From Actinomycetes bacterium (GTDB taxonomy: Bacteria > Actinomycetota > Thermoleophilia > BMS3ABIN01), in contig JAJYXB010000023.1 of the NCBI GenBank assembly GCA_021791195.1, forward strand, positions 1 to 64,000: a DNA stretch of 64,000 nucleotides. The letters run 5' to 3'. The notes beneath the pieces are model-generated. The model saw only the letters and a program-made list of their open reading frames with translations. It did no database searches and was not told the origin of the DNA. Positions 15,650-23,756 of this stretch are shown piece by piece. A program made the position numbers and the translations under genes. Every line of letters begins with the position of its first letter. Position 1 is the first letter of the stretch.

Positions 15650-16600
15650 TTATTTTCTGCTTTTCAGCACCTGCTCTGCCAGTACCACCAGATCCCTTGC
15701 AGTCAGCTGGAATTCTTCCAGTAACTGGTCCGGCTGGCCTGATTTTCCAAATGTGTCCTTGATTCCCAGGCGGCCTATCCTTGCCGGGCAATACTCCGTG
15801 GCCACCCCGGCCACGGCATCCCCCAGACCGCCGATGACGCTGTGTTCTTCGGCGGTCACAGCGCAGCCGGCCTTCGTCAGGCTGGCAGCCACCGTATCCA
15901 CATCAATCGGCTTCAGCACACTAACGTTTACCACTTCCGCGCTGATATCCCTCTTTTTCAACTCTTCAGCCGCTTCGAGGGTCCGGCTTACCATTATGCC
16001 ACAGGCGAACAGGGAAATGTCAGTGCCTTCGCGCAGGACGTCGCATCCCTTGCCCAGGCCGGCCGGCGGTTCCCCGTAAATAAAGGGCACGTTCGGCCTG
16101 CCAGTGCGGATGTACATCGGCCCCGGGAGTTCATAACTTTCCAGCACCGCCGCATAGGTCTGATTGTAATCAGCCGGCACCACCACGCGCATGTTGGGCA
16201 GCAGCCGCATCAGGCCGATATCCTCCACCGACTGGTGCGTGCAGCCGTCTTCGCCCACCGTGAGGCCGCCGTGACTGGCGCAGATTCTCACCGGTAGCCT
16301 CGGCTGGGCGATGCTCTGCCGCACCTGATCGAAAGCCCTGCCGGTGGCAAATACCGCAAAGGTGGAAGCATAAGCGATTTTACCGCTTATCGCAAGGCCG
16401 GCGGCGATGTTCATCATGTTGGCCTCGGCTATGCCCACGTTAAAAAAGCGCTCGGGGAAGGCGGCGCCGAACTTGCCGCTCTTGGTGGAGCCGGCGAGAT
16501 CGGCATCCAGGGCGACGACGTTTTCGTGCCTCTCGCCCAGCGCCAGCAGGGCGTCGCCATAGGCCTCGCGCGTGGCGCGCGGTTTGAGCTCAACTGCCAA
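15650..16600 (-). CDS. Transketolase, C-terminal subunit
   Basis: 316 residues from TTG at 16600 (overlaps the N-terminal subunit gene by 11 bp). The pyrimidine-binding domain of TPP enzymes has RFFNVGIAEANMMNIAAGLAISGKIAYASTFAVFATGRAFDQVRQSIA, with the catalytic glutamate in GIAEAN, and GEDGCTHQSVEDI. The C-terminal transketolase domain follows (DISLFACGIMVSRTLEAAEEL). It pairs with the upstream N-subunit to form a split transketolase of the pentose phosphate pathway, as in many anaerobes and archaea. Confidence 0.94.
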   Translation of the reverse strand: MAVELKPRATREAYGDALLALGERHENVVALDADLAGSTKSGKFGAAFPERFFNVGIAEANMMNIAAGLAISGKIAYASTFAVFATGRAFDQVRQSIAQPRLPVRICASHGGLTVGEDGCTHQSVEDIGLMRLLPNMRVVVPADYNQTYAAVLESYELPGPMYIRTGRPNVPFIYGEPPAGLGKGCDVLREGTDISLFACGIMVSRTLEAAEELKKRDISAEVVNVSVLKPIDVDTVAASLTKAGCAVTAEEHSVIGGLGDAVAGVATEYCPARIGRLGIKDTFGKSGQPDQLLEEFQLTARDLVVLAEQVLKSRK

Positions 16601-17399
16601 CCGGTTCCCCTTTCCCCGGGACCTGCTCGCCCTGCAGCTCGGCCAGCGCCTGCCGTGTCTCTTCCGGCGAAGGGGCTTTCCCGTGCCAGCCGGCGTTGTT
16701 TTCCATGAAAGACACGCCTTTGCCCTTGACCGTTCTGGCGATGATGGCGGTGGGACCGTCACCGGACCGGCTCGCCTCCAGGGCGTCGATTATCTGCCCG
16801 AAGTCGTGCCCGTCGATGGCAAGGGTCTTCCAGCCAAAGGCCGCGAATTTGTCCGGCAATGGTTCGACGTTCATGACATCCTTGGTGAATCCGTCGATTT
16901 GCAGACCATTTGCATCGACGATGGCGGTCAGGTTGGTTAGCTTGTAATGGGCCGCGGCCATGGCTGCTTCCCAGACCTCGCCCTCCTGCGATTCGCCGTC
17001 GCCCAGCAGCGTGAAGACGTGGCCCGGCAGCCCGTCGAGGCGCATGCCCAGCGAAAGGCCGGCGGAGACCGAAAGGCCTTGCCCCAGCGAACCGGAGGAG
17101 ATCTCCACACCCGGTGTCTTGTGCATGTCGGGGTGACCCTGCAGGTGGCAGTCGATCTTGCGGAGGTTCGGCAGGTCGTCGACGGGGAAATAGCCGCTGC
17201 GGGCCAGCGCCGCGTACAGCACTGGCGCACAGTGCCCCTTGCTGAGGACAAAGCGGTCGCGGCCGGCCCACTTGGGGTCGTCCGGCCGGTGCTTGAGGAC
17301 CTTGAAGTACAGGGCGGTGACGATGTCCGTGGCGGAGAGTGAGCCGCCCGGATGCCCCGAGCTCGCCTCCGCAACCATGCGGATGACGTCCTGGCGCAA
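16590..17399 (-). CDS. Transketolase, N-terminal subunit
   Basis: 269 residues from TTG at 17399. TPP-binding motif GDGESQEGEVWEAAMAAAHYKLTNLTAIVDANG; SSGHPGGSLSATDIV and FVLSKGHCAPVLYA near the start; SGSLGQGLSVSAGLSLG. The frame extends 12 codons upstream to CTG at 17435, preceded by GGAGG at 9-base spacing; that start would add DIQELKETASLL, which fits the family N-terminus better, and the TTG at 17399 has no ribosome-binding site. CTG initiation is therefore plausible. It is translationally coupled to the C-subunit. Confidence 0.93.
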   Translation of the reverse strand: MRQDVIRMVAEASSGHPGGSLSATDIVTALYFKVLKHRPDDPKWAGRDRFVLSKGHCAPVLYAALARSGYFPVDDLPNLRKIDCHLQGHPDMHKTPGVEISSGSLGQGLSVSAGLSLGMRLDGLPGHVFTLLGDGESQEGEVWEAAMAAAHYKLTNLTAIVDANGLQIDGFTKDVMNVEPLPDKFAAFGWKTLAIDGHDFGQIIDALEASRSGDGPTAIIARTVKGKGVSFMENNAGWHGKAPSPEETRQALAELQGEQVPGKGEPVGS

Positions 17400-19047: not shown

Positions 19048-19303
19048 GCTTTTTTCGCATTCTCGCAGTTGTCAGTTCACTGCTGCCCTCCAGGAGGGTG
19101 CGTCAGTCCACATGGGATACCATGCATTCTTATTCCGTTTACAAACTCAGCTTAAACTATATGCCAACATTTATTCCGCGCGGTTGGCGCGATAATTATT
19201 GGCCGGACATAGTCACAAAACCAGTATTGGAGTTTTTATCCATCAATAAGGAGGTGGGTCAACCGGTGCCTTTGGCGTCCCTACGGGACACGGAAGCCGG
19301 CTG
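19048..19303. other. Intergenic region with a compact folded element
   Basis: No gene is assigned. At about 19264-19308 the sequence can fold as three short helices (CCGG/CCGG closing GCC-TTT-GGC and GTCCC-TAC-GGGAC). It lies just downstream of the small gene at 19304-19495 and may be its 3' hairpin. A plus-strand AAGGAGGTGGG at 19249-19259 could serve a short plus-strand peptide, but its translation looks random. Confidence 0.3.
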
Positions 19304-19495
19304 TCAGCAACCAGGCTCGCCCGGATGGCCGCAACACTGCTGGCGGTTTCTGATCTTGATCCAGGTGTTGCCGCCGGCTATTTTCAGTTTCTGGATGAAG
19401 GGCAGGCTGCTGCCTCGCCAGTTGTTTCGCGCCGCTCGCATGTCGCCGTGGTGGTGGCCGTGGTGATGTCGATGGGGATGATTTTGTCCCGTCAT
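19304..19495 (-). CDS. Small His-rich protein ending in CCGHPGEPGC
   Basis: 63 residues from ATG at 19495, with GAGGGA eight bases upstream. The N-terminus is His-rich (HPHRHHHGHHHGD), the middle is LPFIQKLKIAGGNTWIKIRNRQQ, and the protein ends exactly at CCGHPGEPGC. Short proteins with a W-x-(K/R)-x-R-x-R....CCG(H/N)xGxPGC tail are, from memory, widespread uncharacterised proteins; the three cysteines and the histidines suggest metal binding. Its ATG overlaps the stop of the 35-residue gene upstream (ATGA). Function unknown. Confidence 0.7.
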   Translation of the reverse strand: MTGQNHPHRHHHGHHHGDMRAARNNWRGSSLPFIQKLKIAGGNTWIKIRNRQQCCGHPGEPGC

Positions 19496-19599
19496 GCCTC
19501 ATTTCCCTCTGTGTTGATCCTGTCACGTATTTTCCGGAGCCGCGCTAGGATCTTCTCCGCAGACTTTTCGCGGTCCGGCCGCGGGTTCATCTTACCCAT
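19492..19599 (-). CDS. Tiny basic protein coupled to the CCGHPGEPGC gene
   Basis: 35 residues (MGKMNPRPDREKSAEKIL, then ARLRKIRDRINTEGNEA), with a second ATG at 19590. It is predicted to form one charged amphipathic helix. The stop TGA overlaps the ATG of the next gene in ATGA, the usual arrangement for coupled translation and the main evidence that it is real. No clear ribosome-binding site is seen upstream. No known family. Confidence 0.5.
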   Translation of the reverse strand: MGKMNPRPDREKSAEKILARLRKIRDRINTEGNEA

Positions 19600-19696: not shown

Positions 19697-20164
19697 ATGT
19701 CCCGGACCGATGACAACAAGCAAGCTTACCGCCGATTCGTTGAAGAGGTTTTTAACAAGGGCAATATCGATGCCGTGGACGAGATGGTGTCACCGGATTA
19801 TGTTGACCACGAACTGTTTGCCGATGAAATACCGCAAAACCGGGAAGGCCTAAAAAAAGGTGTGCTGATGTGCCGCGACTGTCTTGCCGAACTGTCGGTC
19901 AGCATCCAGAATGTTTCTGCCGAAGGCGACAAGATCATTGCCCGCACTACCTGGCATGGTGTCCAGGGCGCCGCAAACGGCCAGGGCTTCGACGCAGGCG
20001 ATCCGGCGGCAGCACGGGATCTGCGGGCGGGTGAAGCGGTCGAGTTCGATACGCTCGATATCGCCCGCTACGAGGACGGTATGGTGGTTGAGCACTGGGG
20101 GCTCACTGATGACGGTCCCGGATGGCCGACGGCGTACTATCTGCCGCAGCGGGCGGGCTCCTGA
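19697..20164 (+). CDS. SnoaL-like (ester cyclase-type) protein
   Basis: 155 residues, AGGAGGTGAC directly upstream of ATG. NTF2-like SnoaL fold: N-terminal helix NKQAYRRFVEEVFNKGNIDAVDEMVSPDYVDHE, later VSAEGDKIIARTTWHGVQ and VEFDTLDIARYEDGMVVEHWGLTD. Proteins of this group include polyketide cyclases and many enzymes of unknown substrate; D/H pairs line the cavity. It is monocistronic, facing the small gene pair on the opposite strand. TTGACA at 19613-19618 may be a -35, but no good -10 is seen at the right spacing. Confidence 0.85.
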   Translation: MSRTDDNKQAYRRFVEEVFNKGNIDAVDEMVSPDYVDHELFADEIPQNREGLKKGVLMCRDCLAELSVSIQNVSAEGDKIIARTTWHGVQGAANGQGFDAGDPAAARDLRAGEAVEFDTLDIARYEDGMVVEHWGLTDDGPGWPTAYYLPQRAGS

Positions 20165-22600: not shown

Positions 22601-23756
22601 TTACGTCTGTGCCTTTCCCGCCCTTTTTACCAGGTACTCACGGATGAAACCGTCGATGTCGCCATCCAGCACCCCCTGGGCGTTGCCCACTTCATAATTG
22701 GTGCGGTGGTCCTTGACCATCTGGTACGGAGCCAGCACATACGAGCGGATCTGGCTGCCCCAGGCGATCTCCATCAGTTCGCCGCGCTCCTTCTCCATCT
22801 GTTCGGCGCGCTGGCGCTCCTGCAGCTCCAGCAGCTTGCTCTTCAGCAGGCGCATGGCGGTGTTCTTGTTAGACAGCTGTGAGCGCTCATTTTGACATTG
22901 AACCACTATTTTGGTGGGAAGGTGGGTGATGCGCACCGCCGAATCGGTCTTGTTGACGTGCTGGCCGCCGGCGCCGCTGGCGCGGTAGGTCTCGATCCGC
23001 AGGTCCTTCTCGTCGATCTCGACCCCGATGTCTTCTTCCACCAGCGGGCTGACCTCCACGGCGGCGAAGCTGGTGTGGCGCCGCCGGGCGGCGTCGAACG
23101 GGGAGATGCGCACCAGCCGGTGGACGCCGCGCTCCGCGGAGAGCAGCCCGTAGGCGTTCTCGCCGTGGAAAGTGACCGTGGCGCTCTTGATGCCGGCCTC
23201 GTCGCCGCCGGTGGCTTCGTTGATCTCGGCTGCGAAGCCGCGCCTGTCGGCCCAGCGCAGGTACATCCGCAGCAGCATCTCGGCCCAGTCCTGGGATTCG
23301 GTGCCGCCAGCGCCGGGGTGGATCACCAGGACAGCGTCGCCGTCGTCATACCCGCCGCTGAAGAGGCGCTCTTCTTCCAGCTGCGCCAGATGGGCGAGGG
23401 TCGCCTCGAGGGCCGAGTAAGCTTCGGTGAAGAAGGCCGCCGCGGCCTCCGCTCCTTCGCCGGCCGCGGCCTCCCGCGCCATCTCCACCATGGCTTCGGC
23501 GTCCCCGACTTCGGCCGCGGTCCCCTGGTAGCGCTGCAGCCGCCGTTTGGCGCGGCGGTACTCGCCGCTTACCCCGGCAGCTGCCGCCTGGTCTGACCAG
23601 AAGTCGGGCTGCTGCATCCGGGCCTCAAGTTCCGATACCTGTTTTTCCAGCGCAGCCGGGTCAAAGGTAATCACCCAGCCACTGGAACTTCTCCATGATC
23701 CGGAAGAGCAGTTCGTCCAGCTCTTCGATTGTGTGGCTTGTGTCAGGCTTGCTCAT
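22601..23756 (-). CDS. prfB: Peptide chain release factor 2 (programmed +1 frameshift)
   Basis: Read in two frames: 31 codons from ATG at 23756 end in WLGDYL before an in-frame TGA (23663-23661); a +1 shift at CTT-TGA-C continues the protein for 353 residues (total 384). The GGQ loop SGAGGQHVNKTDSAVRITH and the stop-codon-reading SPF tripeptide (RISPFDAARRRHTSF) mark RF2, which ends translation at TGA and TAA. The shift is the autoregulatory switch of RF2: low RF2 favours shifting. GGTGAT, complementary to the 16S rRNA end, lies three bases before CTT and would stimulate the shift. Confidence 0.97.
23660..23675 (-). other. prfB frameshift signal
   Basis: Minus-strand GGTGAT-TAC-CTT-TGA-C: an SD-like element, 3-base spacer, slippery CTT, in-frame TGA, then C. 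It matches the canonical CTTTGAC with the stimulatory SD at the usual distance. Confidence 0.95.

Follow-up and report, generated by a model that had tools for sequence, protein, structure and literature searches.

A likely undescribed family of small selenoproteins in Actinomycetota, with selenocysteine predicted at the UGA behind a CCGxxGxPGC motif

Two short reading frames on the minus strand of an actinobacterial contig raise the question of where the second of them ends: does a small Cys-rich protein stop at its last cysteine, or is the UGA codon behind it translated? The window, the whole stretch of DNA analyzed here, comprises 64,000 nt (positions 1-64,000 of contig JAJYXB010000023.1, assembly GCA_021791195.1) from an Actinomycetes bacterium (Thermoleophilia, BMS3ABIN01). 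Read by table 11, it contains a 63-aa ORF (19304-19495, minus strand) that ends in CCGHPGEPGC-TGA, preceded by a 35-aa ORF. Selenoproteins are rare and are routinely truncated by gene callers, and a tiny one that is seemingly complete at its UGA is especially easily missed.

The core of the 63-aa ORF recurs in related genomes. In a search among 60 relatives it was found in 13 of the 18 other genomes of its own genus and family and in five genomes from another family within the class. Profile A2, built on the 39-aa core, retrieved 19 strong members from 149 genomes of the class (E <= 6e-15) and at least 38 members at E <= 1e-3 from 296 genomes of the phylum. With a broader profile (A5, 48 rows), at least 45 strong members (E <= 2e-7) were obtained from 396 phylum genomes, or about 1 in 9; scoring covered the best 25 candidates per genome in the 296-genome search and the best 19 in the 396-genome search, so that members may be undercounted. 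Each member is the single strong hit in its genome. The homologue search with the 63-residue ORF proposed by the first-pass annotation thus gave 54 relatives within the phylum, and a TGA follows the motif in each. By this measure the 63-aa ORF is a real gene of a conserved family, with conservation far beyond chance.

The conserved core, NWRGSSLPFIQKLKIAGGNTWIKIRNRQQCCGHPGEPGC (19307-19423, minus strand), is defined by alignments A2 and A5 and has the consensus NWRxxDxPxxxKLxLxxRNxWxKxxxRxxCCGHPGEPGC. Across the 48 rows of A5, core residues N19, C30, C31, P37, G38 and C39 are invariant. The motif histidine, H33, is often Asn in relatives, which makes a role as an indispensable ligand unlikely. 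One member (L123) departs from the motif, with CCGHPSEPDF before its TGA; this and two other short or divergent sequences (L127, L129) were omitted from profile A5 and still counted for TGA, hairpin and tail. Upstream of the core in the window lies a His-rich N-terminal arm, MTGQNHPHRHHHGHHHGDMRAARN (19424-19495, minus strand), identified from its sequence; relatives in the same family carry a His-rich arm that varies.

The 63-aa ORF matched no Pfam or NCBIfam model. Together with the family members, this bears out the first-pass view of the Cys-rich end as conserved and uncharacterized. Extended members, translated with C for U and searched at E <= 10, likewise gave no convincing family in NCBIfam (six members) or Pfam (five). 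The NCBIfam scan returned just two models, both in one protein: the radical SAM protein TrsS (NF045646; E 0.095, 11.2 bits where the cut-off is 490, 46 residues), which we rejected, and TIGR04200 (E 8.4). Tetraspanin (E 0.084, one member) was, with TrsS, the best match of any extended member. The family profile had no match among PDB sequences.

Several candidates were set aside. The match to a Kribbella locus (L023; 32% over residues 1-54) does not extend into the CC-PGC part. Neither a further hit (E 0.109) from the genome of the window nor nine weak A5 rows from nine genomes (E 0.0017 to 0.0098) were counted, although one of these genomes (G401) holds a member by its strong hit. In IMG/VR, a DNA pattern for the motif picked out eight stretches, none of which has the family core ahead of the motif, and these are therefore read as chance; profile A5 gave nine stretches, of which none was confirmed. 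The tblastn searches of plasmids and phages returned weak matches only (best E 2). One genome (G011; L016 / L130) harbors a remnant, the N-terminal half of the gene, which runs into sequence upstream of the transketolase gene and lacks the Cys/Sec end; since it ends before the Cys motif, it was not counted as a member. In the window itself, the transketolase gene (15650-17399, minus strand) is apparently split into two adjacent ORFs, of which the N-terminal one (16590-17399) matches Transketolase_N.

What, then, does the codon behind the motif encode? An in-frame TGA follows it at one conserved position in all 55 genes (50 relatives with flanking DNA, four relatives found later and the window), whereas other long ORFs that have matches, from the same set of loci, end in TGA for 259 of the 492. 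Cys homologues at the Sec position are usual for selenoproteins, though not required; among the 55 members, all from searches within one phylum, none has Cys there, which is unusual and counts against the Sec reading. We consider that the UGA at 19304-19306 (minus strand) encodes selenocysteine, with a probability of roughly 0.94. The obvious alternative is that TGA is a true stop, as table 11 reads it, and that the product is a Cys/His-rich metal-binding peptide ending in ...PGC, with any hairpin behind it a terminator or attenuator; the invariance of TGA across the 55 genes argues against this.

The sequence behind the codon was compared in all three frames. The frame of the TGA stays open for 1 to 43 further codons (median 15), and over 51 tails His accounts for 82 of 788 residues (10.4%) in that frame, against 8 of 737 (1.1%) and 3 of 737 (0.4%) in the other frames of the same DNA. 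Without translation, tails like ...SHDHDHNHDH or ...HGHGPHAHGPHGHGSEGHRH would be difficult to account for; the tail frame is clearly coding, contrary to a true stop. Three of the 51 tails (f10, f24) consist of one residue; a next stop after just one codon is what a true stop would allow, and it counts against the Sec reading. The late members (G186, G206, G419, G475) enter the TGA count and are excluded from the hairpin, tail and covariation counts, although TGA, tail and hairpin were each seen in their own DNA.

Translation with TGA as U, the family conservation and the constancy of the TGA yield a gene model that spans 19259-19495 (minus strand), from ATG 19495 through the in-frame TGA at 19304-19306 to a second stop, TGA 19259-19261; the start codon is its less certain part. 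The full product is most likely MTGQNHPHRHHHGHHHGDMRAARNNWRGSSLPFIQKLKIAGGNTWIKIRNRQQCCGHPGEPGC-U-QPASVSRRDAKGTG, 78 aa with Sec as residue 64, in which the 14-aa post-Sec tail QPASVSRRDAKGTG (19262-19303, minus strand) occupies the open frame up to the second stop. Read in this way, CCGHPGEPGC would not be a C-terminus but would run into a Cys-Sec pair, behind which the tail follows. The first-pass annotation had correctly described two small minus-strand ORFs overlapping in ATGA, but the gene end that it placed at 19304 is wrong if the TGA encodes Sec, because the frame then runs on to 19259-19261.

A hairpin lies where a bacterial recoding signal would be sought. In the window it has the sequence GUGUCCC-GUA-GGGACGC (19275-19291, minus strand), where nt 16-22, counting from the T of TGA, form its 5' arm, and in the members it lies about 15-18 nt past the TGA, with the loop GGTC in 22 of 51. 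As a control for the way in which hairpin segments were chosen, members and other stops were screened by one fixed rule, which required 5 bp or more in the stem, a 5' arm beginning at nt 14-20 as counted from the T of TGA, and a G as first or second base of the loop. Of the 51 genes, 44 passed, whereas among the other stops the rule picked out 27 of 492, and among those that are TGA 13 of 259; the seven hairpins that fail it count against the Sec reading.

The stems also covary. Paired cells amount to 92.3% for hairpins with 4-nt loops (24 distinct) and 98.0% for those with odd loops (25 distinct), percentages that lean upward since the segments, apart from four anchored by hand on the loop (L081, L092, L118, L124), were picked by best pairing. 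Both sides changed in 29 and 26 cells, respectively, with covariation scores of 0.500 (shuffled mean 0.136) and 0.569 (shuffled mean 0.188); none of 500 shuffles reached the observed level, and a one-base shift of the partner makes the signal collapse. Folding of a 44-nt segment was only moderately better than that of shuffled sequence for the window (z -1.38), a point against the Sec reading, with z -1.25 for the segment behind the TGA of the organism's own selD gene. Rfam gave no match for either of these two segments. In position and in its covariation across the family, the downstream hairpin looks like a bacterial SECIS element. That the hairpins are G+C-rich would suit a terminator behind a true stop, yet their loops and spacing are conserved and no T run follows them in the sequences shown.

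The same genome carries the machinery for selenocysteine insertion. SelA (589.5 bits) and SelB (360.4 bits) are neighbors on one contig, which also holds a tRNA-Sec (70.6 bits; called by ARAGORN as tRNA-SeC with anticodon TCA). SelD (361.4 bits) contains one in-frame TGA, in HGSG-U-ACKLSPSDL (L146:1531-1533, G000:C10), at a position that we take to be the usual Sec site of SelD. Its U-ACKL fits the SelD motif UxxK given in the part of a recent selenoprotein catalogue covered here (PMC13188914). Behind the selD TGA, a hairpin starts at nt 14 and has the loop GTC, so that the genome holds a second selenoprotein gene of the same layout, which serves as an internal positive control. Judging by these genes, the organism is one that decodes selenocysteine. 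The SelD of this organism is thus itself a selenoprotein, and an annotator would truncate it.

Across genomes, the gene tracks SelA. In the phylum sample, SelA was found in 38 of 40 member genomes (38 by A2, plus G186 and G206 by A5) against 183 of 296 overall (hypergeometric P 3.5e-7), and in the class sample in 19 of 19 against 81 of 149 (P 3e-6); both P values treat related genomes as independent and are therefore overstated. Three genomes with a member do not conform fully: in one that is 91% complete (G090) neither SelA nor a convincing SelB was found, another (G215, 83% complete) is without SelA and has a SelB fragment, and in a third, outside both samples (G475, 77% complete), no convincing SelB was found. 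The linkage with SelA is a further point against a true stop, which we now regard as very improbable.

The UGA could also be recoded without selenium, by plain readthrough or by insertion of another residue such as Trp, the effect being to add a His-rich tail. A coding tail is equally compatible with such recoding, and the codon by itself leaves the residue unnamed. However, the genome has full Sec machinery, a Sec-type SelD and a similar hairpin behind it, members co-occur with SelA, and the codon comes after Cys, like that of other CU-type families; recoding of this kind seems even less credible than a true stop. We therefore retain selenocysteine as the residue, and on the sequence evidence the gene, the family and the recoding of UGA can be called well supported.

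The 35-aa ORF (19492-19599, minus strand) does not appear to belong to this system. The ATGA overlap is present in the sequence and would suit a conserved, translationally coupled pair, which is how the first-pass annotation had interpreted the two ORFs. That interpretation fails on the upstream partner: tblastn against the 55 fetched records gave no homologue (best E 0.89), and the upstream translations of 13 relatives of the same family contain nothing like it, their sequence being different. We consider a conserved pair scarcely credible and treat the 35-aa frame as a putative chance or lineage-specific ORF, from which a lineage-specific peptide is possible.

The gene neighborhoods vary, and no partner gene is shared across the loci examined. 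In many loci of two families (f15/f49; L103, L104, L109, L115, L120, L121 and others) the gene sits in a TCA-cycle cluster, often after malate dehydrogenase or fumarase, and in several of these an isocitrate/isopropylmalate dehydrogenase gene faces it. In two further loci, L122 (f45) and L124 (f42), it lies directly behind rpoD, which dnaG precedes in L122, and in part of the f1 loci a metallophosphoesterase gene is near. The window has a PAS-GAF-HD protein and a divergent SnoaL-like protein (19697-20164, plus strand) as neighbors. In G018 (L009) the selenoprotein module occupies a single open frame behind a DUF4440 domain, and we take SnoaL-like and DUF4440 domains both to be NTF2-like folds. 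Such varied neighborhoods argue for a general, not a pathway-specific, role. Elsewhere in the window, a release factor 2-like gene (22601-23674, minus strand) is preceded by an overlapping frame that ends in ...CTT-TGA-C (23655-23685, minus strand), a layout that resembles the familiar programmed frameshift of prfB.

How might such a protein work? We propose that SelB and tRNA-Sec, directed by the downstream hairpin, would read the UGA at 19304-19306 as selenocysteine to give the 78-aa protein. Its conserved part would consist of a basic stretch, probably helical, that leads into CCG[H/N]xG[E/Q]PGC-Sec. The neighboring Cys and Sec may join in a selenenylsulfide, with the Cys-Cys pair upstream as its exchange partner, and a transition metal may be held by the His-rich arms, N-terminal in the window's lineage and in the post-Sec tail in many others. 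At least three His occur in the N-terminal arm or the post-TGA tail in 30 of 50 relatives, and metal binding by this protein is plausible. AlphaFold modeling of the 78-aa protein with one relative reached a mean pLDDT of 49, too low to support a fold. From the motif we tentatively suggest, at well below even odds, a small thiol/selenol redox or metal-handling module that combines Cys-Cys/Cys-Sec exchange with metal held by the His arms.

Given Sec, the protein could instead be a dedicated selenium or metal carrier, a chaperone or scavenger, and not an electron-transfer module. Consistent with a carrier are the His-rich arms found at either end in those 30 relatives, the three invariant, Cys/Sec-flanking cysteines alongside an H33 replaceable by N, and the absence of a constant redox partner nearby. 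On the other hand, in 20 of the 50 relatives neither arm has as many as three His, and the f15/f49 context is one of central redox metabolism, with malate dehydrogenase and fumarase. We think a dedicated carrier unlikely, though only slightly less probable than the redox or metal-handling module that we keep as our working proposal.

The family is likely one of undescribed small selenoproteins, widespread in Actinomycetota. A literature search, within the literature it covered, returned no paper with a CCGxxGxPGCU motif. The 2026 catalogue counts 119 selenoprotein families and subfamilies, and the part of it covered here has CU-type entries for Csac_0668, SaoL, HgcA, SaoC, SaoB (CUxxT), MbdU and KCU-star and no entry for CCGxxGxPGCU (PMC13188914). 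The deep-Sep paper states that Cys homologues now seem to exist for every known selenoprotein (PMC12013277). A family in which Sec is never replaced by Cys would be invisible to methods that seek Cys/Sec pairs. At not quite even odds, we see here an obligate (never Cys) Sec-plus-His metal/selenium module that is widespread in deep-branching Actinomycetota and helps to maintain the Sec trait. Should the lack of a Cys form hold beyond the phylum, the family would be an exception to the Cys-homologue rule, and the question "what can only selenium do?" would become testable on a protein of 50-80 residues.

Among known systems, KCU-star (DUF466, NF033934) is likewise a short selenoprotein of bacteria in which a Cys-Sec (CU) pair lies close to the C-terminus, as given in the catalogue (PMC13188914). 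In contrast to it, the present family has the CCGxxGxPGCU motif and His arms, and its extended members have no match to the KCU-star model (six in NCBIfam, five in Pfam, E <= 10). The Pfam family Sel_put (PF04328) is presumably a relative of KCU-star/DUF466. Sao proteins have a transport-type gene context. SaoC, a Cys-Cys-COOH (seleno)protein (NF040734), shares the CU motif and the small size, by the same covered part (PMC13188914), but has no NCBIfam match here, and the present gene was not seen in a Sao-type transport neighborhood. The Csac_0668-type (2Fe-2S)-binding selenoprotein, MbdU, SaoL and HgcA, as far as the catalogue part covered describes them, also have a CU motif, and some are metal or Fe-S binders by name; by HMM they are different families, with no match at E <= 10, and the other CU family models (NF045648, NF040728, NF040863) had no match among the six extended members in NCBIfam at the same threshold. 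In gene layout, the SelD of the organism itself (L146, TIGR00476) resembles the new gene, with an in-frame TGA and, almost equally far behind it, a hairpin whose loop has 3 nt, although SelD is an unrelated enzyme.
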